Shown here in pieces: positions 12,454 through 34,754 of a DNA stretch of 46,438 nucleotides (positions are counted from its first letter, which is position 1; each line of letters opens with the position of its first letter). The notes beneath the pieces were generated by a model. That model was not told the origin of the DNA, searched no databases, and worked only from the letters and a program-made list of their open reading frames with translations. A program made the position numbers and the translations under genes. The DNA comes from Promicromonospora sp. MEB111. Lineage in GTDB: Bacteria > Actinomycetota > Actinomycetes > Actinomycetales > Cellulomonadaceae. Where the stretch lies: positions 1 to 46,438 of the forward strand of contig NZ_JARVSD010000027.1 in NCBI RefSeq assembly GCF_030209445.1. The letters run 5' to 3'.

Positions 12454-12523
12454 TTCTCTTCGAGGCCCGACTTTCTTCGCTTTGAGCTGCCTCAAAGCGA
12501 AGAAACTTAGGCCTCAAAGAGGA
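12454..12523. repeat. Hairpin repeat element, copy A
   Basis: The core is TTTCTTCGCTTTGAG, loop CTGC, then its exact complement: a 15-bp perfect stem at 12472-12486/12491-12505. Outer arms at 12462-12467/12510-12515 and 12454-12460/12517-12523 extend the pairing with mismatches. It lies in the 297-bp gap between the ECF41 promoter and the stop of the lipid-kinase gene (all minus strand). The T/A-rich core contrasts with the surrounding GC. It is related to elements at 25131, 28173 and 34684. Confidence 0.85.
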
Positions 12524-12579
12524 GCTGCGAGGGCAGCCCGACCGGAACGACGTCGGCGGGCAGGCCGGACGGCACCGCG

Positions 12580-13551
12580 TCAGGCCGGGACGCAGAGGGT
12601 CAGCGACTCGCGGTGGGCCGCCACCGTCACCGGGACCGGGCCCATGGGCTCGCCGTCCGCGTACGTGACCAGGCCCTCGGGAGCCGTCAGGCGGACGGCG
12701 GTCGCGCGCAGCGTCGTGACCTCCGGCCGCTCGACGTGCGTGCCGGCCTTGATCAGCGAGTCGAACGCGAGGAGCCGGAACCGGCCCATCGCCTGGACGA
12801 GCGTGACGTCGAGCAGGCCGTCGGCCGGGTCCGCGCCGGGGCAGATCGGCACGCCGCCGCCGTAGGTCCTGGTCAGACCGATCGCGAGCATGTACCCGTC
12901 CTGCTCCAGCACCCGCAGGCCGGACGCCGGTGCCCCGCCCGGCGCGGGCAGGTCCGGCGCGGCCGCACCAGGGCCCGGCTCCCCCGTCAGCTCCAGCCGG
13001 TACCCGAACCGCCGCAGCCGTAGCCACTCGATGTAGACGGCGGCCAGGTACCGGGCGGGCCCCCGGGGCCACGTCATCCGGTTGGTGCGCTCGTTGGTGC
13101 GCGAGTCCAGGCCCGCGCACAGCACGGTGACGAAGTGCCGCACCGTGCCGTCGGCGGCCGTGACGGTGCCCGTGTCGACGCGGCGGCGGGCGCCGTCGAG
13201 CGCGAGGTCGGCGGCGGCCGCGGCGTCGTCCAGCGGGATGCCGTGCTCGCGGGCCAGGTCGTTGCCCGTGCCGCCGGGGATCACGGCCAGCGGGATGCCC
13301 GAGGCCAGCACAGGCCCCAGCACCGACGAGACCGTGCCGTCGCCGCCGACCACGACGACGACGTCGGGCCGCTCGTCGACGGCCTGCCGCCCGAGCTCGA
13401 CGGTCTCGCGCTCGTCCGCGCCCTGGTAGACCTTGACGTGTGCGCCCCGGGCCCGCAGCCGGTCGACGGCGACGTGCCCGCTGTCCGCCCCGACACCGTG
13501 GCCCGAGGCGGGGTTCACGAGCACCGCGATGTGCCCGACCTGCTCAGTCAT
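12580..13551 (-). CDS. Diacylglycerol kinase-family lipid kinase
   Basis: 323 aa. VVGGDGTVSS (GGDGT at 69-73) and IPGGTGNDLAR (93-99) are the ATP-binding motifs of the DAGK catalytic domain, and VTYADGEPMG near the C-terminus carries the second-domain Asp-Gly-Glu. The enzyme phosphorylates diacylglycerol or a related lipid alcohol to phosphatidate at the membrane face. It lies 9 nt downstream of the flavoprotein stop, clearly one operon. The same four-gene set (glpD, TetR, flavoprotein, lipid kinase) surrounds M. tuberculosis Rv2252, a characterised diacylglycerol kinase. The ATG follows TAGGTT by 6 nt, but that TAG is also the upstream stop codon, so an internal leaderless promoter is only possible. 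Confidence 0.9.
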   Translation of the reverse strand: MTEQVGHIAVLVNPASGHGVGADSGHVAVDRLRARGAHVKVYQGADERETVELGRQAVDERPDVVVVVGGDGTVSSVLGPVLASGIPLAVIPGGTGNDLAREHGIPLDDAAAAADLALDGARRRVDTGTVTAADGTVRHFVTVLCAGLDSRTNERTNRMTWPRGPARYLAAVYIEWLRLRRFGYRLELTGEPGPGAAAPDLPAPGGAPASGLRVLEQDGYMLAIGLTRTYGGGVPICPGADPADGLLDVTLVQAMGRFRLLAFDSLIKAGTHVERPEVTTLRATAVRLTAPEGLVTYADGEPMGPVPVTVAAHRESLTLCVPA

Positions 13552-13560
13552 GGCCGCAAC

Positions 13561-15192
13561 CTATCCGAGGGTGTCTCCGAGCAGGGCGCCCGGGTTCATG
13601 ATCCCGGCCGGGTCCAGCTCGGCCCGCACCGCACGGAGCATGCGCAGGCCCGTCGCCCCGATCTCCTGCTCCAGCCAGGGCGCGTGGTCGGCGCCGACGC
13701 CGTGGTGGTGGCTGATGGTGCCGCCCGCCGCCATGATCGCGTCGTTCACGCCGGACTTGACCCGGTCCCACGGCTCCAGCGGGTCGGTACCCAGCCCGGC
13801 GATCACCGTGAAGTACAGCGAGGCGCCCGTCGGGTAGACGTGCGAGATGTGGCACAGGATGCGGTGCTTCGCGTGCTCCCGGTCGAACCCCTCGGCCAGC
13901 GCCGCGGTGACGGCCGCCTTGAGCGCGCGCAGGTTCGACCAGGTGGTGGCGGTCTCCAGCGTCTCGCAGAAGACGCCGGCGGCGAGCAGCGCGTCGCGCA
14001 GGTACGGCGCCCGGAACCGGCCGTGGTCCCAGGACGCGGCGAGCTTCTCGGCGGCGGGCCGGCCGCCCGCCTCGCGCAGCACGCGCGTGGTGGCCTCCCG
14101 GCGCGCGGCGGCGAGGTCCGCGGGCCCCTCGTGCAGCACGACGGCGGAGCAGCCCCGGGTCAGCGCCTTGCCGATGTTGCCGACCTGGGCCAGGGAGACG
14201 GCGGTCTCCTCCTCGTCGGACAGGCGGATCACCGTGGGGCCCGTGCCGAGCTGCGCCACGCGGCGCAGGCCGTCGGCGCCCGCGGCGAAGTCGCGGAAGG
14301 TCCAGGCGTCGAAGAGGCGCGCCTCGGGCGCGGGGTGCACCCGCAGGCGCACCCGGGTGATCACGCCGAACGTGCCCTCCGAGCCGAGGAACCAGCGCAC
14401 CAGGTCGGGCCCGGCCGCCGAGCCGGGCGCCCGGCCCAGGTCGAGCGTGCCCGTGGGCGTGACCACGCGCAGGCCGGTCACCATGGCGTCGAACCGCCCG
14501 TACCCGGCGGAGTTCTGGCCGGAGGAGCGCATGGCGGCGAACCCGCCGAGGGTCGCGAACTCGAAGCTCTGCGGAAAGTGCCCCAGCTCGAAGCCCCGGC
14601 GGGCCAGCGCGGCCTCGGCGGCGGGCGCCGTCGTGCCGGCGTGGAAGGTCGCCTCGTGGGAGACGTCGTCCAGGGCGACCAGGCCGGTGAGCCGGCGCAG
14701 GTCGAGGCTGACCACGCCCCGGTGCGTCCCGGCGTCCGGCGTCAGGCCGCCGGTCACGGCGGTGCCGCCGCCGAACGGCACGACGGCGAGGCCGCGCCCC
14801 ACCGCGACGGCCAGCACGGCGGCGACGTCGTCCTCCGAGCCGGGCCGCACCACGGCGCCCGGCGCCGCCTGCTCCGCGTGCCGGCGCCGCAGCAGGTCCG
14901 GCGTGGACTTGCCGCCCGCGTGCAGCAGCCGTACGTCGTGGCCGGTGTCCACGTGCTCGGCGCCGACGACCGCGGCGAGCGCCGCGACGTCGTCCCCGGG
15001 CAGGGGCGGGGTGCTGATCGTGACGTCGGCGAGGTCCGGGCCGGGCGGCGGGGCGGGCGTGCGGCCGAGCACGGCCGTGAGCAGGAGCTTCACGCCGCCC
15101 GGCAGCCCGTGGGCGCGGGCCGGGTCGCCCCAGCCGTCCCACCGCATGTCGATGCGCTCGTCCTGCGGCGGCTTCTCCGGCAGCGTGCTCAC
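13561..15192 (-). CDS. FAD-linked oxidase, alkyldihydroxyacetonephosphate synthase-like
   Basis: 543 aa, GTG start with GGAGGA upstream. The FAD-binding loop VPFGGGTAVTGG lies at about 138-149. GKSTPDLLRRR (94-104) resembles the substrate-side segment of alkyl-DHAP synthases. ISHHHGVGADHAPW and the terminal LDPAGIMNPG are typical of the vanillyl-alcohol-oxidase/AGPS superfamily. In eukaryotes AGPS swaps the acyl of acyl-DHAP for a fatty alcohol to start ether lipids. Bacterial homologues are often called FAD-binding oxidase and the true substrate is not proven. Operonic with the lipid kinase and divergent from TetR-glpD, which makes a glycerol-phosphate or DHAP-linked substrate plausible. Confidence 0.87.
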   Translation of the reverse strand: MSTLPEKPPQDERIDMRWDGWGDPARAHGLPGGVKLLLTAVLGRTPAPPPGPDLADVTISTPPLPGDDVAALAAVVGAEHVDTGHDVRLLHAGGKSTPDLLRRRHAEQAAPGAVVRPGSEDDVAAVLAVAVGRGLAVVPFGGGTAVTGGLTPDAGTHRGVVSLDLRRLTGLVALDDVSHEATFHAGTTAPAAEAALARRGFELGHFPQSFEFATLGGFAAMRSSGQNSAGYGRFDAMVTGLRVVTPTGTLDLGRAPGSAAGPDLVRWFLGSEGTFGVITRVRLRVHPAPEARLFDAWTFRDFAAGADGLRRVAQLGTGPTVIRLSDEEETAVSLAQVGNIGKALTRGCSAVVLHEGPADLAAARREATTRVLREAGGRPAAEKLAASWDHGRFRAPYLRDALLAAGVFCETLETATTWSNLRALKAAVTAALAEGFDREHAKHRILCHISHVYPTGASLYFTVIAGLGTDPLEPWDRVKSGVNDAIMAAGGTISHHHGVGADHAPWLEQEIGATGLRMLRAVRAELDPAGIMNPGALLGDTLG

Positions 15193-15263
15193 GCGTCCTC
15201 CGTGTCGTGTCGACGGCCATGTCGTGGTCGACGGCGTCCGGTGTTGGCCACCGACCGGCGTCG

Positions 15264-15279
15264 CGTTACAGTGTTACAC
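15264..15279. promoter_or_regulatory. Divergent promoter region with GTTACA repeats (candidate TetR operator)
   Basis: GTTACA-GT-GTTACA (15265-15278), with the small palindrome GTGTTACAC at 15271-15279, lies in the 90-bp gap between the flavoprotein and TetR starts. TACAGT at 15267-15272 could be the -10 for the TetR gene, whose ATG is 10 nt downstream. Repeats overlapping a -10 are what an autorepressor site would look like; binding is inference. Confidence 0.4.
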
Positions 15280-15282
15280 AAG

Positions 15283-15927
15283 ATGACAATTCGTAATGCA
15301 CTCCCCGAGGGGATCTCGCCCGCACCGGACGCGTTCGGCGACGGCCCGGGCGGCGACCCCGACGCCGCCCCCGACCGCACCGAGGCGCGCCTGCTGGAGG
15401 CCGCCGCCCGGCTCGTCGCCACGCGCGGCACCCGCGGCCTGTCCGTCACGGAGCTCGCCCGCGCGGCCGGCGTCTCGCGGCCCACGGTCTACCGCCGGTG
15501 GGAGTCCGCCGACGACGTGCTGCGCGCCCTGCTCGCGCACCGCGCCCAGCTCGTGATCACCGCCGTCGGTCCCCGGGCCGCCGACCGCGCGACGATCGTC
15601 GACAAGGTGGTGCGGTTCGGCGAGCTGCTGCGGGCCGACCCGGTCTACGGGCACCTCCTGACCGAGGAGCCCGAGGTCTTCACGCGGTACGCCTTCGAGC
15701 GGATCGGCCGGTCGCAGCGCGTGATCCTCGAGTGGCTCGCCGCCGCGGTCGCGGCGGCCCAGCGGGGCGGCACGGTCCGGGCCGGGTCCGCCACGGACAT
15801 GGCGGTCATGGTCCTGCTGATCTCCCAGTCGGCGGTGCTCTCGCACCGGACCGTCACCACCGTGATCGACGACGCCGCCCTGCGGGCCGAGCTCGCGCAC
15901 TCCCTGGACGGGTACCTCCGCCCCTGA
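15283..15927 (+). CDS. TetR-family transcriptional regulator
   Basis: 214 aa. An N-terminal helix-turn-helix at about residues 45-70 (LSVTELARAAGVSRPTVYRRW) is followed by the TetR connector VLRALLAHRA and an all-helical ligand domain. The ATG fits closely behind TACAGT; a GTG four codons upstream is in frame but lies within the putative -10. It is divergent from the flavoprotein-kinase operon and co-directional with glpD 59 nt downstream. It is the natural candidate to control both, perhaps in response to a lipid or acyl-CoA ligand, which cannot be predicted from sequence. Confidence 0.88.
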   Translation: MTIRNALPEGISPAPDAFGDGPGGDPDAAPDRTEARLLEAAARLVATRGTRGLSVTELARAAGVSRPTVYRRWESADDVLRALLAHRAQLVITAVGPRAADRATIVDKVVRFGELLRADPVYGHLLTEEPEVFTRYAFERIGRSQRVILEWLAAAVAAAQRGGTVRAGSATDMAVMVLLISQSAVLSHRTVTTVIDDAALRAELAHSLDGYLRP

Positions 15928-15986
15928 CCGGCGCGCCGGCCCGGCGTCCGCCACCCCAGAAGCCGACCCGACCAGGGAGCAGAACG

Positions 15987-17603
15987 ATGCAGCGCACCGC
16001 CCTCACCGCCCGGCGCCGCGAGCGCGAGCTCGACGAGCTCGCCTCCGAGCCGGTGGACCTGCTCGTGGTCGGCGGCGGGGTGACCGGCGCCGGCGTGGCG
16101 CTGGACGCCGCGGCGCGCGGCCTGTCGGTCGCCCTCGTCGAGGCGCGGGACCTGGCGTGGGGCACCTCCCGGTGGAGCTCCAAGCTGGCGCACGGAGGCC
16201 TGCGGTACCTGGCCACGGGCGACGTCGGCGTGGCCCGCGAGAGCGCGCGCGAACGGCACGTGCTGATGACCCGCACCGCGCCGCACCTGGTCCGGGCGCT
16301 GCCGCAGGTGCTGCCGCTCACCCAGGGCGTGGGGCCGCGGCAGGGCCTCACGGCGGGCATCGGGTTCGGGCTGGGCGACCTGCTGCGGCGCGACGCCGGG
16401 ACGTCGTCGGACGTGCTGCCCGCGCCGCGCCTGGCCCGGCCGGGCGAGGCCGCCCGGCTCGTGCCGGCGGTCGCGCGCGAGCACCTGCACGGGGCGTGGG
16501 TGGCGCACGACGGCCAGCTCGTCGACGACGCGCGGCTCGTCGTCGCCCTGGCGCGCACTGCCGCCGGGCGCGGGGCGCGGATCCTGACGCGCGTCCGGGC
16601 CACGGAGCTGCACGGGGACGGCGCGACCCTCCAGGACACGCTGACCGGCGCCGGTCTGCGGGTGCGGGCCCGCGTCGTCGTGAACGCCACGGGCGTGTGG
16701 GCCGGGACCGTGGACCCGTCGGTGCGCCTGCGGCCGAGCCGCGGCACGCACGTCGTGGTGCCCGCCGCGCGGCTGGGCGACCCGGCGGGCGCCCTCATGG
16801 TGCCGGTGCCCGGGTCCGCCTCCCGGTTCGTGTTCGCGCTGCCGGCCCAGCTCGGGCGCGTGATCATCGGCCTCACCGACGAGGAGGCCCCCGGCCCCGT
16901 CCCGGACGTGCCCGTGCCCACACGGCCCGAGATCGACTTCCTGCTGGCCACGGTCTCCCGCGTGCTGGACCACCCCCTGCTGCCCGACGACGTCGTGGGC
17001 GCCTTCGCCGGGCTGCGGCCCCTCGTGGACTCCGCCGGGCCGGGCGACGGCCCGGGGCTCGGCTCGTCCGACGTCTCCCGCAGGCACCTCGTGGCGGTCT
17101 CCTCCGCGACGGGCGCGGTGAACGTGCTGGGCGGCAAGCTGACGACCTACCGGACCATGGCCGAGGACGCCGTCGACCTGGCCGTCAAGCACGCCGGGCT
17201 CACCGCGGGGCCGTGCTGGACGGCGGACCTGCCCCTGGTCGGCGCGCCGCCGCGGGCGGTGCCGCCGGCCGATGCCCTGGCGCGGGCGGGGGCGCGGGCC
17301 ACGCAGGTCGCGCCCCCGCCCCTCGCCCCCGCCCTCGTCGCGCGCTACGGCGCCGAGGCCCCCGACGTGCTGGCCGCCGCCGCGCTGCCGGGCGCGTCGG
17401 ACGTCGTCGGGCAGGGCATCCCGGGCACCGGGCACCTGGACGTCACGCGCGCCGAGATCGAGTGGGCGGTCACCCACGAGGGCGCGCTCGACGCGGACGA
17501 CGTGCTGGACCGTCGGACCCGGATCGGGCTGGTGCCGGCGGACCGGGCCGCGGTGGGCGACGTCGTCGGGGAGCTGGTCGAGGACGCGCTGAAGCGGATC
17601 TGA
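15987..17603 (+). CDS. glpD: Glycerol-3-phosphate dehydrogenase (FAD)
   Basis: 538 aa, ATG preceded by AGGGAGCAG. The FAD Rossmann motif VVGGGVTGAGVALDAAARG (28-46) is followed by the GlpD signature WGTSRWSSKLAHGGLRYL. Further blocks are GLRPLVDS, LGGKLTTYRTMAEDAVD and the C-terminal helical domain with TRAEIEWAVTHEGALDADDVLDRRTRIGL. It oxidises sn-glycerol-3-phosphate to dihydroxyacetone phosphate at the membrane and feeds electrons to menaquinone. No glpF/glpK is adjacent; instead it follows the TetR gene opposite an AGPS-like flavoprotein and a lipid kinase, suggesting a role in lipid-head-group supply as well as glycerol catabolism. Confidence 0.94.
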   Translation: MQRTALTARRRERELDELASEPVDLLVVGGGVTGAGVALDAAARGLSVALVEARDLAWGTSRWSSKLAHGGLRYLATGDVGVARESARERHVLMTRTAPHLVRALPQVLPLTQGVGPRQGLTAGIGFGLGDLLRRDAGTSSDVLPAPRLARPGEAARLVPAVAREHLHGAWVAHDGQLVDDARLVVALARTAAGRGARILTRVRATELHGDGATLQDTLTGAGLRVRARVVVNATGVWAGTVDPSVRLRPSRGTHVVVPAARLGDPAGALMVPVPGSASRFVFALPAQLGRVIIGLTDEEAPGPVPDVPVPTRPEIDFLLATVSRVLDHPLLPDDVVGAFAGLRPLVDSAGPGDGPGLGSSDVSRRHLVAVSSATGAVNVLGGKLTTYRTMAEDAVDLAVKHAGLTAGPCWTADLPLVGAPPRAVPPADALARAGARATQVAPPPLAPALVARYGAEAPDVLAAAALPGASDVVGQGIPGTGHLDVTRAEIEWAVTHEGALDADDVLDRRTRIGLVPADRAAVGDVVGELVEDALKRI

Positions 17604-17647
17604 GCCGCCCCGCCGCGAAGGCGCGGCCCCGACCGACAGGCGCGGTC

Positions 17648-18439
17648 CTAGGCCGGGGGCGCGGGCGCACCCGGCGGCGCGGGCGCGGGTTCTCGTTCCC
17701 GGCGCGGGGCGCGCAGCACGGAGAGCGCCACCATGCAGGCGATGAACCCGAGCAGCCAGCCGCCCGGGATGTCGCTCAGCCAGTGGTAGTCCAGCCAGGA
17801 CATGAGGGCGCCCGCGATCATCACGATCACGGCGACCACGGGGATCATCTTGCGCAGCCGGGACACGCTCGGATACAGGCCGTTCTGGGTGAACAGCAGG
17901 CACAGGATGAAGAAGCCGGTGAAGAACGTGTTCGCCGCGTGCCCCGACGGGAACGCCTGGCCACCGGCGTGCAGCACGTCCATGTTGTGGTGGGGGCCGG
18001 TCCGCCCCAGGCCGAACTTGGTGCCGTAGCCGATCAGCGCGATGGTCGCGAGGCCCGCCACCACGGCGAGCACCGGGCGGCGCGTGCCGATCTCCCGGAG
18101 CGAGCCCGGGCCGCCCTGCTTGCGGGCCACGTACAGGGCCGTGCCGCCCACCATCGGGATGGTGAACATGCGCTCGCCCGTGATGCTCGCGACGATGTCG
18201 AGGAAGATCTTCTCCCAGCCCACGGGGTGGTGGGAGTCCACGTAGTAGTGGAACTGCCAGTCCCAGGCGATGAACGGCCCGCGGACGACGACCTGCCAGA
18301 TGCAGAGGGCGAAGACCAGCACGGCGATGACGGCGGCGACCACGGAGCTGCGCCAGGTCGGACGGGTCGACGGGTCGAGCAGAGCCCCTGTCGTGTGTGA
18401 CTCCACTCGGGTAACACCCCTGCCCTCTGATTGCGCCAT
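17648..18439 (-). CDS. PAP2-family membrane phosphatase
   Basis: 263 aa with about six hydrophobic segments (roughly 32-53, 88-105, 123-145, 165-186, 197-216, 225-245) and a Pro/Ala-rich cytoplasmic tail. KFGLGRTGPHH, AFPSGHAANTFFTGF and SWLDYHWLSDIPGG are the three PAP2 active-site motifs, with PSGH and the final His-Asp intact and the usual Arg of SRxxxxxH replaced by Trp. The family dephosphorylates phosphatidate, undecaprenyl or other isoprenyl pyrophosphates on the outer membrane face. It is convergent with glpD and close to the lipid-kinase operon, consistent with phosphatidate or diacylglycerol turnover. The ATG at 18439 sits 7 nt after TAGGAT. Confidence 0.88.
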   Translation of the reverse strand: MAQSEGRGVTRVESHTTGALLDPSTRPTWRSSVVAAVIAVLVFALCIWQVVVRGPFIAWDWQFHYYVDSHHPVGWEKIFLDIVASITGERMFTIPMVGGTALYVARKQGGPGSLREIGTRRPVLAVVAGLATIALIGYGTKFGLGRTGPHHNMDVLHAGGQAFPSGHAANTFFTGFFILCLLFTQNGLYPSVSRLRKMIPVVAVIVMIAGALMSWLDYHWLSDIPGGWLLGFIACMVALSVLRAPRREREPAPAPPGAPAPPA

Positions 18440-18446
18440 CGAGCCG

Positions 18447-18452
18447 ATCCTA
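18447..18452 (-). promoter_or_regulatory. -10 box TAGGAT, leaderless promoter of the PAP2 gene
   Basis: The minus strand reads TAGGAT-CGGCTCG-ATG with a 7-nt gap, so transcription should start at or next to the start codon. The rest of the 18440-18698 gap holds GGTCAC/GTGACC arms (18522-18527/18540-18545) and one hairpin, with no gene. Confidence 0.5.
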
Positions 18453-18556
18453 CGGGTTTCGGGGTGAATGTTCGGTGCCGGATACGTGTCCGGCAGGGGC
18501 TCCGGGTAACGATCCCGGCACGGTCACACCGACCCAGGGGTGACCGTATACCGTCC

Positions 18557-18577
18557 GCCTGGGACAGCGTCCCAGGC
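18557..18577. terminator. Hairpin downstream of the LacI gene
   Basis: GCCTGGGAC-AGC-GTCCCAGGC is a perfect 9-bp stem with a 3-nt loop and no T-run. It lies about 120 nt past the LacI stop in the 259-bp gap before the PAP2 gene. Termination of the minus-strand LacI message is likely but unproven. Confidence 0.4.
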
Positions 18578-20784: not shown

Positions 20785-20787
20785 GCC

Positions 20788-23265: not shown

Positions 23266-25074
23266 ATGGCCACGTTCGAGATCGGACCCGAGGACTTTCT
23301 GCTCGACGGCGAGCGGATGCAGGTCGTCAGCGGCGCGCTGCACTACTTCCGCGTGCACCCCGACCAGTGGGCCGACCGGATCCGCAAGGCCCGGCTCATG
23401 GGCCTGAACACCATCGAGACGTACGTGCCGTGGAACTTCCACGCGCCCGACCCGGACACGTTCGACCTGACGGGACGACGCGACCTCGGCCGGTTCCTCG
23501 ACCTGGTGGCCGCCGAGGGCCTGCACGCCATCGTGCGGCCGGGTCCCTACATCTGCGCGGAGTGGGACGGCGGCGGGCTGCCCGGCTGGCTGTTCGCCGA
23601 CCGGGCCGTGGGCGTGCGCCGGCACGAGCCGCGGTTCCTCGCGGCGATCGGCACGTACTTCGCCAACCTGCTGCCGCTGGTGGCCGAGCGTCAGGTGACG
23701 CGCGGCGGGCCCGTGCTCATGGTGCAGGTGGAGAACGAGTACGGGGCCTACGGGAACGACCCGGTGCCGGAGCGCCAGAAGTACCTGCGCGCGCTCGTGG
23801 ACCTCACGCGCGAGCAGGGCATCGACGTGCCGCTGTTCACCTGCGACCAGGCGGACGACGAGATGCTCGCCCGCGGCGGCCTGCCGGAGCTGCACAAGAC
23901 CGCGACGTTCGGCTCGCGCAGCACGGAACGGCTGGAGATCCTGCGGCGGCACCAGCCGACCGGCCCGCTGATGTGCATGGAGTTCTGGAACGGCTGGTTC
24001 GACTCCTGGGGCCTGGAGCACCACATCGCCCCGGCCGAGGCGAACGCCGCCGACCTGGACGACCTGCTCGCGGCCGGCGGGTCCGTGAACCTCTACATGT
24101 TCCACGGCGGCACCAACTTCGGGCTGACCAGCGGCGCCAACGACAAGGGCATCTACCGGCCCATCACGACGTCCTACGACTACGACGCGCCGCTCGCCGA
24201 GGACGGCACGCCCACCGCCAAGTACCACGCGATGCGCGAGGTCATCGCCCGGCACCTGCCGGTCCCGGACGCCGGGACGCCGGATGCCGACGGGCCGGCC
24301 GCGGCGCCGGTGCTGGACGTCGACCTGTCCGCCCAGGTGCCGCTGACCCACGCGCTGCCGAGCCTGCTGCGCGAGGACCTTGCTGCGTTCACGTCGACGC
24401 CCACCACCGACGACCTGCGGCTGTGGTCGGGTTTCGCCGTCTACCGCACCCGGATCCAGGCCGACGACCTCGTGCTGACCGTCACCGAGGTGCGCGACCG
24501 CGCCGTCGTGCTGGTCGACGACGAGCAGGTGGGGGTGCTCGACCGCGCGTCCCACACCTTCGCCGTCGCGCTGCCCGCCCGCGCGGGCGACCTCACGCTC
24601 CTGGTGGAGGACCAGGGCCGGGTCAACTACGGGCCCCGGATCGGCGAGCCCAAGGGCCTCGTCGGCCCGGTGCGCACGGCGACCCGCACCCTGGACGAGT
24701 GGGAGGCCGGTGCGCTGCGCGTCGAGGACGCCCCGGAGCTGCTGCGCGCGGCGCTCGACGCGCCGGGGCGTGCGCTGCCGGTCGCGGCTCGTGGTGTGCG
24801 GCCGGTCGGGGCCGGGCTCTACCGCGCCACGTTCGACTCGGTCGGCGGGGCCGACCACTTCCTCCGGCTCGACGGCTGGACCAAGGGCCTGGCCTGGGTC
24901 AACGGCGAGCTGCTGGGCCGGTACTGGAGCCTCGGCCCCACGCACACGCTGTACGTGCCGGGCCCGGTGGTGCGCGACGCCGGCAACGAGCTGGTGCTCC
25001 TGGAGCTCCACGGCGCGGCCGACGCGCGGGCAGGCTTCGTGGCGGCGCCGGCCCTGGGCATCACGGAGCAGTAG
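23266..25074 (+). CDS. GH35 beta-galactosidase
   Basis: 602 aa. Residues 91-109 (RPGPYICAEWDGGGLPGWL) and GGPVLMVQVENEYG (147-160) are GH35 signatures, with the general acid expected at Glu158. MEFWNGWFD places the nucleophile at Glu239. The roughly 320-residue TIM barrel is followed by beta-domains with a C-terminal jelly-roll (LRLDGWTKGLAWVNGELLGRYW). No signal peptide is seen, so it hydrolyses terminal beta-galactosides in the cytoplasm after uptake by the upstream importer. The ATG with GAGGAAC upstream is preferred over an earlier start that would add 22 unrelated residues. Confidence 0.94.
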   Translation: MATFEIGPEDFLLDGERMQVVSGALHYFRVHPDQWADRIRKARLMGLNTIETYVPWNFHAPDPDTFDLTGRRDLGRFLDLVAAEGLHAIVRPGPYICAEWDGGGLPGWLFADRAVGVRRHEPRFLAAIGTYFANLLPLVAERQVTRGGPVLMVQVENEYGAYGNDPVPERQKYLRALVDLTREQGIDVPLFTCDQADDEMLARGGLPELHKTATFGSRSTERLEILRRHQPTGPLMCMEFWNGWFDSWGLEHHIAPAEANAADLDDLLAAGGSVNLYMFHGGTNFGLTSGANDKGIYRPITTSYDYDAPLAEDGTPTAKYHAMREVIARHLPVPDAGTPDADGPAAAPVLDVDLSAQVPLTHALPSLLREDLAAFTSTPTTDDLRLWSGFAVYRTRIQADDLVLTVTEVRDRAVVLVDDEQVGVLDRASHTFAVALPARAGDLTLLVEDQGRVNYGPRIGEPKGLVGPVRTATRTLDEWEAGALRVEDAPELLRAALDAPGRALPVAARGVRPVGAGLYRATFDSVGGADHFLRLDGWTKGLAWVNGELLGRYWSLGPTHTLYVPGPVVRDAGNELVLLELHGAADARAGFVAAPALGITEQ

Positions 25075-25130: not shown

Positions 25131-25198
25131 CCTCTTCGAGACCTAAGTTTCTTCGCTTTCGGGTCGCCCAAAGCCAAGAAACTTAGGTCTCGAAGGGG
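25131..25198. repeat. Hairpin repeat element, copy B
   Basis: This is the most perfect copy: a 20-bp uninterrupted stem at 25134-25153/25176-25195, one mismatch, then a further 5 bp (25155-25159/25170-25174) around a short loop. It shares the TTTCTTCGCTTT core with copies A and C. It lies between the convergent beta-galactosidase and hutI genes, where it could act as a bidirectional terminator. Confidence 0.88.
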
Positions 25199-25275: not shown

Positions 25276-26538
25276 TCAGACGGCGCGGGCGCCCGCCTGC
25301 CAGACCTGGTGGATCAGCGGGACGCCCGGGCGGTACGCGAGGTAGGTGTGGCTCGGGGCGTCCAGCACGGTCAGGTCGGCGCGGGCGCCCACGCCCAGGT
25401 GTCCGACGTCGTCCCGGCGGAGCGCCAGGGCCCCGCCCGCCGTCGCCGACCAGAGGGCTTCTGCCGGGCTCATCCGCATCTCGCGCACCGCGAGCGCCAC
25501 CACGAACGGCATGGACGACGAGTAGCCGGAGCCCGGGTTGCAGTCCGTGGCCAGGGCGACGGGCACGCCCGCGGCGAGCAGCCGGCGGGCGTCGGGGTAC
25601 GGGGACCGGGTGGAGAACTCGATCGCGGGCAGCAGGGTCGCGACGGTGCCGTGCCCGGTGCCCGGCCCGCCGTCCGCCGGGCTCCACGAGTCCGCCAGCG
25701 CGGCGACGTCGGCGTCGGTCAGGTGGGTGCAGTGGTCCACGCTCGCCGCCCCGACCTCGACCGCGAGCCGCACCCCCGGACCGGCCGAGAGCTGGTTGCC
25801 GTGCACCCGCGCGCCCAGCCCCGCGCGCAGCCCGGCCTGGAGGACGGCGCGCGCCTCGTCCTCGTCGAACGCCGTGGGCGCGGCGGGCTCGCAGAACACG
25901 TCGACCCAGCGGGCGTGCGGCGCGCAGGCGGCGAGCATCGGGCCGGTCACGAGGCCGACGTACCCGGCGCGGTCGGCGGTGTACTCGGCGGGGACGGTGT
26001 GGGCGCCGAGGTACGTCGTCTCGGGCGTGAGCTCGCGGGCGATCCGCAGCGTGCGAGCCTCGGTGGCGACGTCCTGGCCGTAGCCGCTCTTGATCTCGAC
26101 GGTCGTGGTGCCCTGCGCGAGCATCTCGCGCACGAGCGCCCGGCCGCGCGCCCGGAGCTCGTCCTCGCTCGCGGCGCGGGTCGCGGCCACCGTCGTCGCG
26201 ATGCCGCCGCCGGTGTAGGGCTCGCCGGTCATGCGCGCGGCGAACTCGGCGGCCCGGTCTCCCGCGAACACGGTGTGCGAGTGCGAGTCCACGAACCCGG
26301 GCAGCACGCAGCGCCCCTCGAGGTCGACGACGACGTCCGCCGCCGGGGCCGACGCCGCCGGCCCCGTCCACGCGATGCGCCCGTCCTCGACGATCACGGC
26401 GGCGTCCGGCACGACGCCGATCCCGTCGGCCGCGGTTCCCCGCCCGCCCGGCACGGTCCCGCCCTCGGCCGGCCCCGACCCGTCGTGCGCCGGGTCGTTG
26501 GTGACCAGCTCGCCGATGTTCGTCAGCAGCACGCTCAT
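25276..26538 (-). CDS. hutI: Imidazolonepropionase
   Basis: 420 aa amidohydrolase-fold enzyme. [13 protein letters not shown] supplies the metal Hx[31 protein letters not shown] and [16 protein letters not shown] are the ordered HutI motifs with metal and substrate residues. It opens 4-imidazolone-5-propionate to N-formimidoyl-L-glutamate, step 3 of histidine breakdown. Residues about 15-45 hold a Gly/Ala-rich insertion ([15 protein letters not shown]) not needed by the fold. The ATG overlaps the hutF TGA by 4 nt. It is the last gene of the operon, facing the beta-galactosidase across a hairpin element. Confidence 0.94.
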
Positions 26539-28172: not shown

Positions 28173-28246
28173 GATCCTCTTCGAGGCCTATGTTTCTTCG
28201 CTTTCGGCCCTGTCAAAGCGAAGAAACTCAGGCCTCGAAGGGGATC
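28173..28246. repeat. Hairpin repeat element, copy C (inside the hut operon)
   Basis: Outer arms at 28173-28189/28230-28246 pair over 17 positions with one G-T wobble. After two mismatches a 13-bp inner stem (28192-28204/28215-28227) closes on the TTTCTTCGCTTT core. The element fills most of the 135-bp gap between the M20 amidohydrolase stop and the hutF start, both minus strand, so it is transcribed within the operon. Confidence 0.88.
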
Positions 28247-28268
28247 ATGGCGGGCCCGGTCGGCCTGG

Positions 28269-29849
28269 TCAGCCCGGTCGGCCCGGCGGGGCGACTCGGC
28301 CCGGCGGCAGGGCCGGGTCCGTCAGCAGGTCCGGGTCCGTCAGCAGGTCCGGGTCCGTCAGCAGGTCCGGGTCCGTCAGCGGGTCCGGGTCCGTCAGCAG
28401 GTCCGGGTCCGTCAGCAGGTCCGCCAGGACGGCGGTCAGGGCCTCGACCCCGGCGTCGCAGTCGGCCTGCTCGGCGTACTCCACCGGAGAGTGGGACACC
28501 CCCGTCGGGTTGCGCACGAACAGCATCGCGGTGGGTACGCCGGCCGCGGCGAGGATGCCGGCGTCGTGCCCGGCGCCCGTGCCGATCACCGGCGCGGGGA
28601 GGGCGGAGCCCGGCCTCCCGACGACGTCGGCGAGCCGCGCCGCGAGCGCCGGGTCGAATACCGTGGCCGGCGTCCAGGACTCCTCGACGGGCCGCCACCC
28701 GGCCAGCCCCCGCCCGCCAACGCGGGTCCAGCCCCTCTCACCGACCCCAGCCCCGCCGTCGGCCGTCGAACGTAGGGTTGCTCGCTCCGTGAGCCCTGAT
28801 GCGCCGACGACTCCTACGCTCGGCGGCTCGCTGCCCGACAGCTCGCCGCCCGACAGCTCGCTGCTCGGCGGATCACCGATCACCGAACGGACGGCCCGTT
28901 CCGTTTCCGCGCGGGCGTCGATCCAGGCGCGCACCCGGGACGGGATCGCGTTGACGCCGTTCGGCTCGACCTCGACCTTGGCCAGCGTCGCGAGCGCCCC
29001 GGCCGGCTCGGCGGCGGCGCGGACGTCGGTGATCAGGCGCGCGAGGTCGAGCATCGGGTCGTGCCGGTGGGCCAGCGGTGTGGTGCCGGCGTGGTTGGCC
29101 TCGCCCGCGAGGTCGACGCGCCAGCGGCCGTGCGGCCAGATCGCGGCGCCGACGGCGACCGGTGCCGCCTCGTCGGCGGGCAGGTCGGCGAGGTACCGAC
29201 CCTGTTCCACGTGCAGCTCGACGAAGACGCCGATCCGCGCCAGGGCCTCGTCGTCGCGGCCGTAGTGGTCGAGCCGCGCACCGCCGTCCGAAGCCCCGCT
29301 CGTCCGGCCCACCCCGCCCGTCCGGCCCACCCCGCCGGTCGGGCCGACCCGTCCGAGCACGTCCGCGAGGCTGTCCCCCGCCCGGTCCCGCAGCGCGAGC
29401 AGCCGGTCGGCCCCGACGGTGCCGGTGACCGCCCGCGAGCCGAGGCAGGCGAGCCCGAACCGGGCGCCCTCCTCGTCGGAGAAGTTCACGATCCCGAGCG
29501 GCCGAGCGGGCACGACGCCGTCGGCCCGCAGCGCGTCGAGCGCCGCGAACGCGCTCGCCACGCCCAGCGGGCCGTCGAACGCGCCGCCGCCGGGCACCGA
29601 GTCGAGGTGGCTGCCGGTCACGACGCCGGGCCCCTCGGCGTCCGGGTCGCCCCACCACGCCCACTGGTTCCCGGCCCGGTCCACGGTCACGTCCAGCCCC
29701 CGCGCCGCGGCCTCGGCGGCGAACCACTCGCGCAGGGCCAGGTCGTGCACGGTCCAGGCGAACCGCTCGTACCCGCCGGACGGCGCCCGCCCGACGTCGG
29801 CGATCGCCTCCAGCAGCCCGCCGACGCGGATCAAGCCCGGACCCGTCAC
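28269..29849 (-). CDS. M20-family amidohydrolase (allantoate/N-carbamoyl-amino-acid hydrolase-like) of the hut operon
   Basis: 526 aa. [53 protein letters not shown] and VSHSPVEYA are the metal-binding motifs of the AllC/HyuC group of M20 peptidases. The same gene lies between hutU and hutF in Streptomyces, and no formylglutamate deformylase (HutG) is present here, so the enzyme probably finishes the pathway by hydrolysing N-formylglutamate to glutamate and formate; this is inference. Three in-frame tandem-repeat insertions occur: a C-terminal LLTDPD run, an [13 protein letters not shown] insert near 28826 and VGRTGG repeats near 29301. The protein is about 100 residues longer than usual. The GTG start overlaps the hutU stop as GTGA. 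Confidence 0.88.
28311..28418. repeat. 18-bp tandem repeat at the 3' end of the M20 gene
   Basis: Six head-to-tail 18-bp units (plus-strand GTCCGGGTCCGTCAGCAG) are almost identical; the first has one change and the fourth one change. On the coding strand each gives Leu-Leu-Thr-Asp-Pro-Asp, extending the final helix of the enzyme. The near identity points to recent slippage expansion. Confidence 0.9.
28826..28870. repeat. 15-bp tandem repeat within the M20 gene
   Basis: Three units of GCTCGCYGCCCGACA type at 28826-28840, 28841-28855 and 28856-28870 (the last degenerate). They encode the [11 protein letters not shown] segment of a roughly 65-residue insertion that separates conserved blocks of the amidohydrolase. 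Confidence 0.7.
29301..29336. repeat. Perfect 18-bp duplication within the M20 gene
   Basis: CGTCCGGCCCACCCCGCC occurs twice without change at 29301-29318 and 29319-29336, followed by a degraded third copy. It encodes the GGVGRT repeats of a Gly-rich loop between [10 protein letters not shown] and the [10 protein letters not shown] block. Confidence 0.75.
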
Positions 29850-31522
29850 GCCCCCTCCCGCATCGGCACCCGCAGCCCGCCGCGCTCGGCGGCGGCGACG
29901 GCGTCGTCGTACCCGGCATCCACGTGCCGCAGCACGCCCGTCGCCGGGTCGTTCGCGAGCACCCGCGCGAGCTTCTGCGCGGCGAGCGCCGTCCCGTCCG
30001 CGACGGACACCTGTCCGGCGTGGATCGAGCGCCCCATGCCCACGCCGCCGCCGTGGTGCAGCGACACCCACGTCGCACCCGACGCGGTGTTGACCAGGGC
30101 GTTCAGCAGCGGCCAGTCCGCGATGGCGTCGGAGCCGTCGGCCATCGACTCCGTCTCCCGGTACGGCGAGGCCACCGAACCGGAGTCCAGGTGGTCACGC
30201 CCGATCGCGAGCGGTGCGGAGATCTCCCCCGAGGCGACGAGCTCGTTGAACCGCAGCCCCGCGACGTCGCGCTCCCCGTGCCCGAGCCAGCAGATGCGGG
30301 CGGGCAGCCCCTGGAAGGCGACCCGGTCCTGGGCGGCGCGGATCCAGCGGCCGAGGTGGTCGTCGTCCGGGAACAGGTCGAGCACGGCCTGGTCGGTCAC
30401 GGCGATGTCCCGCGAGTCCCCGGACAGCGCAGCCCAGCGGAACGGGCCCTTGCCCTCCGCGAACAGCGGCCGGATGTACGCGGGCACGAAGCCCGGGAAG
30501 TCGAACGCCCGGCCGTAGCCGCCCTGGCGCGCCTCGTCGCGGATCGAGTTGCCGTAGTCGAACACCTCGGCGCCCGCGTCCTGGAAGCCCACCATGCCCT
30601 CGACGTGCCGGGCCATCGACTCGCGCGCCCGCTCGGTGAACCCCTCCGGGTCCTTCTCGGCCTCTGCGGCCCAGTCCGCCAGCTCCACCCCCGACGGCAG
30701 GTAGGACAGCGGGTCGTGCGCCGAGGTCTGGTCCGTCACGACGTCCACCTCGACGCCGCGGCGCAGCAGCTCCGGCACGACGTCGGCGGAGTTGCCGACC
30801 ACGCCCACCGACAGCGCGCGCCGGTCCTTCTTCGCGGCCAGCGCCAGCTCGACCCCTTCGTCGAGCGAGGACGCGACGACGTCGAGGTAGCGCGTCTCGA
30901 CGCGCCGGTGCAGGCGGGCCGGGTCGACGTCGACCACGAGGCACACGCCGCCGTTGAGCGTGACCGCCAGGGGCTGGGCGCCGCCCATCCCGCCGCAGCC
31001 GCCGGTCAGGGTGAGGGTCCCGGCCAGCGTGCCGCCGAACCTCTTGGCGGCCACCGCGGCGAACGTCTCGTACGTGCCCTGGAGGATCCCCTGGGTGCCG
31101 ATGTAGATCCAGGACCCGGCCGTCATCTGCCCGTACATGGTCAGGCCGAGCTGCTCCAGACGCCGGTGCTCGGGCCACGTGGCCCAGTCGCCCACGAGGT
31201 TGGAGTTGGCGATGAGCACGCGCGGCGCCCACTCGTGGGTACGCAGCACGCCCACGGGCCGTCCGGACTGGACCAGAAGGGTCTCGTCCTCGCGCAGGTC
31301 CGTGAGGGAGCGGACGATCGCGTGGTAGCTCGGCCAGTCCCGCGCCGCCCGGCCGGTGCCGCCGTAGACCACCAGGTCGTCGGGCCGCTCGGCCACCTCG
31401 GGGTCGAGGTTGTTCATGAGCATGCGCAGCGGCGCCTCGGTCTGCCAGCTCCGGGCGGTCAGGGTGGTGCCGCGCGCGGCGCGGACGGGTACGGGGGTCC
31501 CCCGGTCGTACGGCTGGTTCAC
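29846..31522 (-). CDS. hutU: Urocanate hydratase
   Basis: 558 aa, the normal urocanase length. [25 protein letters not shown] N-terminus, QTAG-like [35 protein letters not shown] (NAD-binding glycine loop with Cys), DQTSAHDP and the C-terminal [15 protein letters not shown] are diagnostic. It uses tightly bound NAD+ to hydrate urocanate to 4-imidazolone-5-propionate, step 2 of the pathway. The GTG start has AAGGAG upstream. It lies 40 nt downstream of hutH and overlaps the amidohydrolase start by 4 nt. Confidence 0.96.
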
Positions 31523-31562
31523 TTGGGTCTCCTTCGGCTCGGGTCGGCAGGTCGGGGCGGGT

Positions 31563-33173
31563 TCAGTGGAGGTGTCCGACGGCGCCCGCGGCGGCCGCCA
31601 CGACCTGTCCGCCGGCCACGAGCCCCACCACGTGCTCGATCTCGGGGGCGAGGTAGCGGTCCGGTCCGGGACCGGGCACGACGGCGCGGACGACGTCGTG
31701 CACCGCCGCCGTACCCGCCGCGGGGGCTTCTTCCCGCAGGTCCAGGGCGCGCGTGGCCGTGAGCACCTCGATCGCGAGCACCCGGGTGAGACCGTCCACG
31801 GAGCGGCGCAGCTTGCGGGCGCCGGCCCAGCCCATGGACACGTGGTCCTCCTGCATGGCGGAGCTCGGGATGGAGTCCACGCTCGCGGGCACCGCGAGGC
31901 GCTTGAGCTCGGAGACGATCCCGGCGGCCGTGTACTGGGCGATCATGTGCCCGGAGTCGACGCCGGGGTCGTGCGCGAGGAACGCGGGCAGCCCCTCGGA
32001 GCGCGCGACGTCGAGGAACCGGTCGGTGCGCCGCTCGCTCATGCTCGCCAGGTCGGCGGCCGCGATGGCGAGGAAGTCGAGCACGTAGGCCACGGGCGCG
32101 CCGTGGAAGTTGCCGTTGGACTCGACCCGCCCGTCGGCGGTCACGACCGGGTTGTCGATCGCCGAGGCCAGCTCCCGGCCCGCGACGGTGGCGGCGTGGT
32201 CCAGGGTGTCGCGGGCGGCGCCGTGCACCTGGGGTGCGCACCGCAGGGAGTAGGCGTCCTGCACGCGGGTGCACGCGGGATTTCCGGCGTCGTCCAGCTC
32301 GCGGTGGCTCGCCATGAGCGGCGAACCCGCCAGGAGGCGCCGCATGTTCGACGCGGACGCCGCCTGCCCGGGGTGCGGGCGCAGGCCGACCAGGTCCTCG
32401 GCGAAGGGCGCGTCCGACCCGAGCAGGGCCTCGACGGACAGGGACGCCGCGACGTCGGCCGTGGTGAGCAGGCGCCGCAGGTCGTGGAGCGCGAGGCAGA
32501 GCATGCCGAGCATGCCGTCGGTGCCGTTGATGAGAGCCAGACCCTCCTTCTCGGCGAGCACCAGCGGCTCGATCCCGGCGTCGGCGAGGGCCCGGGCGGC
32601 GTCGACCTCGTGTGCCCCGACCCGCATGCACCCCTCACCCATCGCGGCGAGCGCCACGTGCGCGAGCGGCGCGAGGTCGCCGGAGCAGCCGAGCGACCCG
32701 TACTCGTGCACGACGGGCGTGATGCCCGCGTTCAGCATCCCGGCGTAGGTCTGCGCCGTGACCGGACGCGCGCCGGTGTGGCCGGTGACCAGGGTCGCGA
32801 GCCGCAGGAGCTGCAGCGCCCGCACCACCTCGGTCTCGACCTGCGGCCCAGACCCCGCAGCGTGCGAGCGCACGAGGCTGACCTGGAGCTGCGCCCGCAT
32901 CTCGGCGGGGATGTGCCGACGCGCGAGCGCGCCGAAGCCGGTGGAGACGCCGTAGTGCGGCGCGGCGTCGTGGGCGAGGTCGTCGATGACGGCGCGGGTC
33001 TGCGCCATGCGAGCCAGCGCGCTCGCGTGGATCTCGACGGTCGCGCCGTGGCGGGCCACGGCGACGACCTGCTCGACGGTCAGCGGGGTGCCGTCGAGCA
33101 CGACGTGCGTGGTTTCCTCGGTGCCGGCCGCGCCGGAGGCGGGCGTCGTTGCCGCGTCGTGCAGGGTGCTCAT
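31563..33173 (-). CDS. hutH: Histidine ammonia-lyase
   Basis: 536 aa. HYGVSTGFG (73-81) supplies the catalytic Tyr loop, and [12 protein letters not shown] holds the triad that cyclises to the MIO cofactor; here it is C163-S164-G165 rather than Ala-Ser-Gly. Later blocks such as [25 protein letters not shown] and [13 protein letters not shown] are typical. It deaminates L-histidine to trans-urocanate. It is the first gene of the operon and divergent from an IclR regulator 90 bp away. The ATG at 33173 gives a family-typical protein with an extended, low-complexity 20-residue N-terminus. Confidence 0.95.
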
Positions 33174-33227
33174 GCGCTCATCGAACCTCGCCCCGGCCCC
33201 TCCGGCGCGGGCGGAGGCATCGATAGA

Positions 33228-33243
33228 GTCTGGGATACGAGAC
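33228..33243. promoter_or_regulatory. Candidate hut operator (GTCT-N8-AGAC)
   Basis: GTCTGGGATACGAGAC is an imperfect palindrome with intact GTCT/AGAC arms in the 90-bp gap between hutH and its IclR regulator. TAGAGT at 33224-33229 may be the -10 of the regulator, so the site would cover its transcription start. This is consistent with autoregulation and control of hutH; no binding evidence. Confidence 0.45.
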
Positions 33244-33263
33244 AACGCACCCGGGAGGAAACA

Positions 33264-34031
33264 GTGGCCGGCAGCAGTGCCGTTCCCGCCGCGCGGAGCA
33301 CAGCGCGGCTGCTCTCGTTCCTCGCGGCGCAGCCCGGGCCGGTGCCCGCGGGCGCGATCGCGCACGGCCTCGGGGTGCCCCGGTCCAGCGTCTACCACCT
33401 GCTGTCGGTGCTGGGCGACGAGGGCTTCGTGCGGCACTTCCCCGACGAGCGCCGCTACGGCCTGGGTGTGGCGGCCCTCGGCCTGGGCAGCGCGTACACC
33501 CGGCAGGCGCCGCTCACCCGCCTGGCCGCGCCCGTCGTCGCCCGCCTGGTGGAGGCCGCGGGCGAGAACGGGCACCTCGCCGTCCTCAACGGGCGGGAGG
33601 TGCTGTACCTGGTGGAGCAGCGGGCGGCGGGGCGCCCGCCCCTGGTCACCGACGTCGACGTGCACCTCCCGAGCCACCTCACCGCCAGCGGCCGAGCGGT
33701 CCTCGCGCTGCTGCCGCCCGCGCAGGTGCGCGCCCTGTACCCGACGCCGGGGTCGTTCACCGACCTGACCGGCGCCGGACCGCACACCCTGCGCGAGCTG
33801 CGCGACGTGCTGCGGCTGGCGCGGGCACGCGGCTTCGCGGTGGAGGACGGCGAGGTGACGGCGGGCTTCGCGTCGGTGGCCGCTGCCGTCGTCGACCACA
33901 CGGGCCGCCCGGTCGCCGGGCTCGCGATCACCTTCCGCTCGGAGGCGTACGACGACGACGCGCGGGCCGGCCTCGCGGAGCAGGCGACCCGGGCGGCGCG
34001 CGAGGTCAGCCGGCGGCTCGGGGCGCGGTGA
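33264..34031 (+). CDS. IclR-family regulator of the hut operon
   Basis: 255 aa, GTG start with GGGAGGA upstream. The winged helix spans about residues 8-70 (RLLSFLAAQPGPVPAGAIAHGLGVPRSSVYHLL). The effector domain includes VVARLVEAAGENGHLAVLNGREVLYL, HLPSHLTASGRAVLA and VAGLAITFRSE. It is divergent from hutH, so control of histidine use, probably with urocanate or histidine as effector, is a fair inference. The 3' end overlaps the convergent gene at 34006 by 26 bp. Confidence 0.87.
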   Translation: MAGSSAVPAARSTARLLSFLAAQPGPVPAGAIAHGLGVPRSSVYHLLSVLGDEGFVRHFPDERRYGLGVAALGLGSAYTRQAPLTRLAAPVVARLVEAAGENGHLAVLNGREVLYLVEQRAAGRPPLVTDVDVHLPSHLTASGRAVLALLPPAQVRALYPTPGSFTDLTGAGPHTLRELRDVLRLARARGFAVEDGEVTAGFASVAAAVVDHTGRPVAGLAITFRSEAYDDDARAGLAEQATRAAREVSRRLGAR

Positions 34032-34539
34032 CGTGCGGGTTGCCGGGCAGTTCGTGCAGGATCCCGTCGGTGCCGCGCCTCCACCACAGGCCGGCGGCGT
34101 CGCGGAACGTCAGCTCGAGCTGGACGTCCTGGTCGTCCGCGAAGTGGACGACCTCCGGCTCCCCGACGACCCGCGGCCTGTCCGTCGGGGTGAGCATGCC
34201 CCACGGTTCCAGGCGGGGAGCGTCACCCATGAAGCCCGCCGGGATCGAGACGACCACCTCGTACACGGGCGCCGCCGAGGCGTTGTGGATCCTGTACTCC
34301 GCGAGCAGCTCGGGTGGATCCGGCTCGATGTGCACCTCGAGCCAGGCGTTCACGAGCGTGGCCTGTGCGCGCCGGCGCTCGGTTGCCTGCTCTCTCCGGT
34401 CGGCCGTACCCCGGTAGTACTCGACCCCGCCGAACACGAGCGCGACGAGCACAGCGGCGAGGGTTCCGATCGCGATCATCCAGTCGACCGCCGACGGCCC
34501 GCCGTTCAGAACGACCGCAAGAGGCGGAAGCGGCGACAC
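34006..34539 (-). CDS. Membrane-anchored protein of unknown function
   Basis: 177 aa from GTG. A single hydrophobic helix at about residues 20-42 (MIAIGTLAAVLVALVFGGVEYY) follows a short N-terminus. Then comes a basic coiled stretch (RREQATERRRAQATLVNAW) and a beta-rich domain (EYRIHNASAAPVYEVVVSIP to LELTFRDAAGLWWRRGTDGILHEL), probably cytoplasmic. The architecture resembles small actinobacterial helix-plus-beta-sandwich proteins; no function can be assigned. The start is chosen because TACGAT lies exactly 6 nt upstream (leaderless); a longer frame would add 48 Arg/Pro-rich residues. The C-terminal codons overlap the IclR gene end-to-end. Confidence 0.65.
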   Translation of the reverse strand: MSPLPPLAVVLNGGPSAVDWMIAIGTLAAVLVALVFGGVEYYRGTADRREQATERRRAQATLVNAWLEVHIEPDPPELLAEYRIHNASAAPVYEVVVSIPAGFMGDAPRLEPWGMLTPTDRPRVVGEPEVVHFADDQDVQLELTFRDAAGLWWRRGTDGILHELPGNPHVTAPRAAG

Positions 34540-34545
34540 AGTTGA

Positions 34546-34551
34546 ATCGTA
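34546..34551 (-). promoter_or_regulatory. -10 box TACGAT, leaderless promoter
   Basis: The minus strand reads TACGAT-TCAACT-GTG with a 6-nt gap to the start at 34539 and no Shine-Dalgarno sequence. The 322-bp divergent gap (34540-34861) otherwise contains hairpin copy D and the promoter of the MurG-like gene. Confidence 0.5.
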
Positions 34552-34683
34552 TGAGGCCCGGGCGGAACCACACCTCGTGCGGACGGTCGTCGGCGCACCT
34601 GCCGACCCACGCGGGCGGCCAGCCGGAGGTTGGAGGCGCGGTGATCTACGTCTCACCGCGGGCCGTCGGAGGGCTCCCCGCAC

Positions 34684-34754
34684 TCCCCTTCGAGGCCAGA
34701 GTTTCTCCGCTTTGCGGGCGCTGAAAGAGGAGAAACTCTGACCTTCGAGGAGGG
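34684..34754. repeat. Hairpin repeat element, copy D (between divergent genes)
   Basis: The inner stem is 12 bp at 34697-34708/34729-34740, continued by 4 bp at 34710-34713/34724-34727. The core is TTTCTCCGCTTT, differing from copies A-C at one position with the matching change in the opposite arm. The outer TTCGAGG blocks pair poorly. It lies between diverging promoters, where a terminator for a flanking gene is not expected. Confidence 0.8.

Follow-up and report, generated by a model that had tools for sequence, protein, structure and literature searches.

REP/BIME elements bind gyrase in E. coli. REPs are mobile and, like the family described here, biased to gene 3′ ends (PMC3733652); the accessible portion of that survey contains neither the word Actinobacteria nor the word Streptomyces. 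The stem-loop families of Petrillo 2006 and Cozzuto 2008 (PMC1590033, PMC2267715) were collected from 40 genomes, and the high-GC Gram-positives met in the accessible parts of these papers are Corynebacterium and Mycobacterium. In Streptomyces, the accessible sections of a Term-seq study report that just 4-6.6% of 3′ ends qualified as canonical intrinsic terminators and that terminators have a median of 32-35 stem nucleotides (PMC12207403), and structured 3′ ends lacking a U-tract have been mapped in Streptomyces clavuligerus, according to the accessible text of PMC8269248. Dispersed motifs can also take on a local spelling: Neisseriaceae DNA uptake sequences have species dialects, as the accessible part of PMC3630211 describes.

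The window, that is, the whole stretch of 46,438 nucleotides of Promicromonospora sp. MEB111 DNA that was analysed, holds four hairpins, A to D, which a sequence-only reading had listed together with eight base pairs. All four are present at the positions it gave, all eight pairs read as it gave them, and the genome-wide folded repeat family that it suspected, here called F1, is real and larger than it had noted. A covariance model finds 50 places in the MEB111 genome, each matched on both strands, 49 of them with E <2e-7 and one weak (C17; E 0.007). The model was trained on 40 aligned MEB111 copies, taken from 33 regions retrieved from the genome, and those 40 match by construction; in a plain DNA search with copy B as the sole query, 39 other places and copy B itself were recovered (74 rows). 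When as many as 3 mismatches are allowed, a 22-base pattern of the arm matches 83 times in this genome, its reversed control never, and all 83 matches sit in listed F1 hairpins, leaving no unpaired arm. Rfam yields no gathering-score match in the window; we found no description of the family in the literature, and papers containing the core strings, among the matches listed, are unrelated by title.

Each F1 copy is a near-perfect palindrome of 68-70 bp composed of an outer box, a covarying triplet, an inner box, and an individual apex; in the MEB111 genome the arm reads approximately CCCCTT(C/T)GAGGCC, a varying triplet, GTTTCTTCGCTTT, an apex stem of 3 bp, and a loop of ~4 nt. Mean conservation of the boxes is 0.94 at positions 5-13 and 0.95 at positions 17-29, as averaged over 41 MEB111 copies of equal length with 8 of 49 copies of differing length set aside. 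The border, T-CCCC...GGGG-A, is abrupt: an A directly follows the stem in 83% of 69 oriented flanks, and beyond it conservation stops. The apices are nearly all private, with 113 distinct 10-base apices among 127 distinct equal-length copies (of 140 from MEB111 and three named species). In the 40-copy alignment, 92.8% of cells pair, at most 57% after sliding by 1-3 columns, and both sides have changed at 15 of 32 pairs (91 such cells vs 29 in shuffles); these compensatory changes fall at the C/T site, in the triplet, and in the apex stem, and are rarer inside the inner box. Behind the hairpin, T occurs 1.33 times per 10 nt, vs a background of 1.54, and no U-tract was found behind the stem in the 69 flanks; F1 is therefore not a canonical intrinsic terminator.

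The position of F1 relative to genes is strongly biased. Among the 50 MEB111 copies, 23 are convergent, 24 tandem, 3 divergent, and none wholly intragenic, with three overlapping a called gene end by 2-16 bp; the room in gaps of at least 70 bp would predict 25% convergent, 40% tandem, and 35% divergent (chi-square p 1.6e-5), the genes being those of a purpose-trained caller (122 long ORFs, 91% coding) rather than a curated annotation. In tandem gaps, 21 of 24 copies are closer to the upstream stop than to the downstream start (median 31 vs 98.5 bp). The same holds for 23 of 27 tandem copies in other species, where 93 copies at loci chosen by exact core comprise 50 convergent, 27 tandem, and 10 divergent cases, one inside a called gene, and 5 at the locus edge; MEB111 and the other species together contribute 13 divergent calls. 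The mixed gene contexts of the window copies had been taken to oppose a pure terminator role, an argument that fails genome-wide, where only 3 of 50 copies are divergent (35% expected) and tandem copies hug the upstream stop. We considered and rejected a regulon marked by F1, given that no theme is shared among 20 proteins scanned with Pfam (18 of the 70 genes ending at F1, best-scoring copies and window neighbours first, plus two other window ORFs), 3 of which had no match.

F1 shares its niche with other long hairpins. A survey of 846,438 bp of MEB111 DNA returned 62 hairpins with a stem score of at least 15, namely 6 F1 copies and 56 others, the latter divided into 26 convergent, 23 tandem, 4 divergent, and 3 intragenic; owing to uneven arms, it overlooked B, D, and a copy on C30, three of the nine F1 copies that it covered. 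By eye, at least six other repeated long-hairpin families are present. One of these, F4 (GTGTCAGACnnnCAGGTCAC), follows the F1 plan of box, covarying triplet, and box, and has 30 exact copies in MEB111, 23 in G010, 5 in G008, 1 in G011, and none in the other four of the eight genus genomes searched; G008 carries F4 but no F1. Position, symmetry, and these accompanying families fit a U-less bidirectional 3′-end hairpin of GC-rich genomes. We tentatively read F1 as a genus-level family of such hairpins with a putative role as terminator or mRNA 3′ guard, a function that we deduce from sequence and hold with slightly less than even confidence. Being mostly located within ~70 bp behind a stop codon and reading the same on both strands, a copy could act for both members of a convergent gene pair; when transcribed, it would yield an RNA stem of 30-35 bp without a U-tract, which may form or guard the mRNA 3′ end as (i) a U-less I-shaped terminator, (ii) an exonuclease block, or (iii) an RNase III site.

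Copy A (12455..12522) is tandem and follows, after 57 bp, the stop codon of a diacylglycerol-kinase-like gene (12580-13551, minus strand); copy B (25131..25198) occupies the convergent gap between a GH35 beta-galactosidase gene (23266-25074, plus strand) and an amidohydrolase gene (25276-26538, minus strand); and copy C (28176..28243), again tandem, comes 25 bp after the stop codon of an M20-peptidase-like gene (28269-29849, minus strand). Copy D (34685..34752), the least regular of the four, is called divergent, a call resting on a left ORF of 157 aa (34006-34479, minus strand) that overlaps another call and has no Pfam match. Syntenic F1 copies are found at the copy B site in G002, G006, and G010, and at the copy C site in six genomes (G001, G002, G006, G010, G011, and G012), F1 being absent there from five others and G009 not mappable; the presence pattern at the copy C site requires at least 3 changes on a one-gene tree. 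None of 12 congeners has F1 at the copy D site. For sites B and C, 13 mapped congener places lack F1, and at or next to three of these (G007 and G003 at B, G003 at C) stands a different long hairpin. Finally, an outer half-arm, CCCCTTCGAGGCC, stands alone between convergent genes at 3748..3766. A congener locus, L096, has a complete F1 at this place, and the inner 12-mer of this remnant has no other occurrence outside F1 in 846 kb of MEB111 DNA, which makes the remnant most simply, and probably, the deletion scar of an F1 copy.

The family is carried by 11 of 13 Promicromonospora genomes and is absent from G005 and G008 in the covariance model search; counts for several congeners are lower bounds, to be read as "at least." G003 has three copies, one of them weak, and one-strand matches at E 1e-5 number 117 in G011 and 62 in G007. 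The exact core occurs at no fewer than 80 loci in named genomes; among the matches listed, 79 are in P. sukumoe, P. kroppenstedtii, and P. umidemergens, and one is in a Clostridia MAG that matches in the core only. Outside the genus, 6 of 187 genomes reach E 1e-4, and G020, of yet another genus, is weaker. Part of a box recurs in the non-genus matches viewed, which may or may not be kin of F1, since pairing by itself is enough to give a long GC-rich palindrome a score. Syntenic F1 copies exist in another species for 35 of the 50 MEB111 sites, from 59 syntenic pairs, each located to within 320 bp from one flank or from both. In the reverse direction, nine foreign copies map onto the surveyed MEB111 DNA, where 5 meet F1 (four sites, one of them twice) and 4 do not (one site seen twice, a second copy beside copy A, and window 3748-3766). 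Identity is 83.6% between syntenic copies, 82.0% between non-syntenic copies of different species, and 80.6% within the MEB111 genome, vs 89% in flanking DNA.

Each genome has its own dialect of the boxes, and syntenic copies are therefore hardly more alike than non-syntenic ones. When copies from six genomes are assigned by their boxes and nothing else, 102 of 116 fall nearest to the genome that they come from, vs a mean of 23 and a maximum of 36 in 20 label shuffles; G002 is poorly separated (4 of 8), and MEB111 is the most mixed. The spelling is GAGACC-TAA-GTTTCTTCGCTTT in G006, GAGACC-GAG-GTTGCTTCGCTTT in G011, GAACCC-GAC-GTTTCTCGGCTTT in G007, GAGTCC-TAG in G001, and GAGGTC-TAA-GTTTCTCCGCTCT in the sister genomes G004 and G012. 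Copies were read without box patterns (20 each from G006, G007, and G011, 7 from G001, 8 from G002, 3 from G004, and 2 from G012), those of G006, G001, G002, G004, and G012 being the best model matches, a choice that works against detecting dialects. Exact outer boxes of the GAGGCC form on both arms number 25 in MEB111, 39 in G009, 47 in G010, 9 in G002, 3 in G012, one each in G003, G004, and G011, and none in G001, G006, and G007, all of which carry F1. Exact inner cores number 53 in G006, 51 in G010, 40 in G009, 30 in MEB111, 10 in G001, and 8 in G002, with none in G003, G004, G007, G011, and G012. Of the 9 copies at sites B and C that have a usable profile, 7 are spelled in the dialect of the genome in which they sit, the exceptions being window copy B and the G012 copy at C. 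Conservation of the boxes between species, a view that rested partly on loci chosen by the exact inner box, is ruled out by these dialects. A spelling held in common by dozens of dispersed copies within a species is concerted change, which may reflect a reader whose preference shifts, in the manner of the Neisseriaceae uptake-sequence dialects (PMC3630211), copy turnover into the same slots, or arms recopied between copies that keep individual apices. A terminator can work without a common stem sequence and without a species dialect, and terminator function leaves the dialect unexplained; for the 3′-end hairpin that we favor, we conjecture that a sequence-specific factor reading the copies, or recopying of arms between them, could keep one dialect.

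Copy turnover is central to another reading, possible although we rather doubt it, in which F1, a MITE- or REP-like palindrome, is non-autonomous and either moves or copies itself by means of an unrecognised enzyme, its copies turning over in each species and its gene-end bias representing tolerated insertions. Dialects at shared places fit such turnover, as do the sharp border, with A at +1 in 83% and no consensus beyond it, the local grouping of copies in twos to fours (2-4) in other species, the patchy presence of several unrelated families (F4, and G008 with F4 and without F1), and the equal gene-end bias of REPs in the accessible part of PMC3733652. Against this reading, direct repeats of at least 6 bp flank 2 of 50 MEB111 copies (2.1 expected), and nearly every copy has its own apex (113 among 127). 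The Y1/RAYT transposase domain PF01797 matches in none of the 13 genus genomes, with control matches in 5 of 14 named genomes, in agreement with the earlier remark that no REP-associated transposase is visible; a RAYT origin is rejected on this ground, for the Y1 family scanned. A parent IS with F1 ends is likewise rejected for the MEB111 genome, as all 83 arm matches fall within listed hairpins and no single-arm parent element appears outside them, and so is horizontal carriage, phage and plasmid records (blastn, one copy) and viral contigs (exact core) being blank. What survives of the REP/MITE-like mobility proposed in the sequence-only reading is the room that species dialects leave for some copy turnover; target duplication, parent element, and Y1 transposase do not accompany it.

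The pairing of the arms also calls for caution. In the 59 syntenic pairs, both sides changed with pairing kept in 122 cells and with pairing lost in 34, and one-sided changes comprise 130 of pair/mismatch, 48 of pair/G-U, and 18 of other kinds. If selection acted on the RNA alone, the transcribed strand should tolerate G-U more readily than A-C; the ratio is 24:15 for tandem copies read on their sense strand (one-sided p 0.10) and 27:36 for convergent copies, nine copies with indels having been skipped, and the preference is not significant. One apex is the exact reverse complement of that of its syntenic partner. Over 77 apex pairs at 35 sites, 4 match only inverted (0.5 expected, p 0.0016) and 3 only directly (0.6 expected, p 0.02), with mean identities of 0.572 inverted, 0.550 direct, and 0.510 shuffled (p 0.001 for inverted), in a test that was devised, and its cut-offs set, after the first case had been noticed and in which 2 of the 4 inverted pairs come from the copy C site. 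Syntenic apices are more alike than others (0.591 vs 0.531, <1 in 5000 permutations, 47 of 59 pairs readable), and this retained likeness speaks for inheritance in place of some of the copies at least. When template switching occurs between the arms of an inverted repeat, it makes the arms alike and inverts the spacer (PMC8604942, accessible part); it also yields compensatory changes in one step (PMC8794818, accessible part), and, together with the apex inversions, this means that covariation alone is no proof of RNA selection. Thus, the earlier contention that compensation implies selection on the folded form stands as to the compensatory pairs, which are real, and is weakened as to the inference, because the syntenic apex inversions point to DNA template switching. 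On the reading that we favor, structure selection and template-switch repair would both help to keep the arms matched.

F1 could also act as DNA. Placed between transcription units, its boxes would be binding sites for a road-block, topoisomerase, or nucleoid protein, much as gyrase is bound by REP/BIME elements in E. coli, and RNA folding would be incidental. The boxes are common within the genome (0.94 and 0.95 over 41 copies) and differ from species to species in the way expected if a DNA reader changed, and the G-U preference is not significant; the triplet and the apex stem, however, also keep their pairing, which is needless for duplex DNA binding, and no candidate protein has been identified, and we regard this reading as unlikely. 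A purely mutational origin of the covariation, with template switching (PMC8604942, PMC8794818, accessible parts) keeping palindromes perfect at gene ends that tolerate them without any function, is suggested by the syntenic apex inversions (4 of 77 inverted only vs 0.5 expected), yet alone it yields neither a shared box over ~50 dispersed copies nor species dialects and is highly improbable.

More speculatively, and with a degree of belief well short of that given to the 3′-end hairpin, several parallel long-palindrome families could constitute a gene-end code, each family with a species dialect and with copies and reader (or template-switch recopying of arms) shifting together as species part. 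F1 separates compensatory change from selection on RNA structure, two things that are often lumped together, and raises the question of how dozens of dispersed, partly syntenic palindromes come to have one spelling per species when nearly every apex is individual. Whether a reader drags its sites along or arms are copied between sites, either would be of general interest, and F1 suggests that high-GC actinobacteria, which are poor in U-rich terminators, have a gene-end system that has gone unrecognised.

Among known systems, F1 resembles REP/BIME elements in comprising many intergenic palindromes beside gene 3′ ends, with several families per genome, and it shares the extragenic, 3′-end-biased location of REPs; unlike these elements, which are 20-40 bp long and GTAG/CGTC-tagged, it is a near-perfect dyad of 68-70 bp whose border has no terminal GTAG or CGTC tag and is followed by non-conserved bases. 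As judged from its letters, it has the I-shaped terminator trait of a stable stem-loop without a U-tract close behind the stop codon, and it differs from U-lacking I-shaped terminators in a stem about twice the Streptomyces length given in the accessible part of PMC12207403 and in a shared, species-specific stem sequence. Like Neisseriaceae DNA uptake sequences, whose inverted pairs act as terminators in the accessible account, F1 is a dispersed motif with species dialects; unlike these single motifs with some inverted pairs, it occurs only as whole palindromes, in ~50 copies, and the two are compared by dialect pattern alone. In form and place it is also like the stem-loop families of Petrillo 2006 and Cozzuto 2008, which, in the accessible parts of these papers, are repeated intergenic hairpins concentrated at gene 3′ ends. 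We place F1 in the known class of palindromic gene-end repeats, and not among REPs or MITEs.

At window positions 3748-3766, an outer half-arm of F1, the family of 68-70 bp near-perfect palindromes at gene ends, stands alone with convergent genes on both sides; an entire F1 element occupies the matching place in a congener (locus L096). Elsewhere, F1 copies in other species are grouped, with two to four per cluster within 0.3-4 kb (L068 6759-7137, L111 1900-5861 and L075 1472-1733), and one of these three clusters is apparently a local duplication that includes the flank. At L010 3998-5017, a 339-aa gene lacking a Pfam match is flanked by two F1 copies 1.1 kb apart.

On contigs C11, C30, C12, C1 and C34 of the MEB111 genome, the 3' ends of genes also carry long hairpins with near-perfect stems that belong to at least six more families; CGTGTCAGAC...GTCTGACACG and TGAGTGCGGGATATTCGCCC...GGGCGAATATCCCGCACTCA are examples. 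Palindromes of 98 bp are found in congeners (L152 10999-11096, L153 3909-4006 and L159 1213-1310); these read TGGTCGGCA... and are composed of GGTCGGTA-like units. In another genus of the same bacterial family, hairpins at L209, L212 and L215 contain an inner stretch resembling CTTTCCGTCGCTTTCC and are possibly distant relatives of F1, or possibly a chance likeness.
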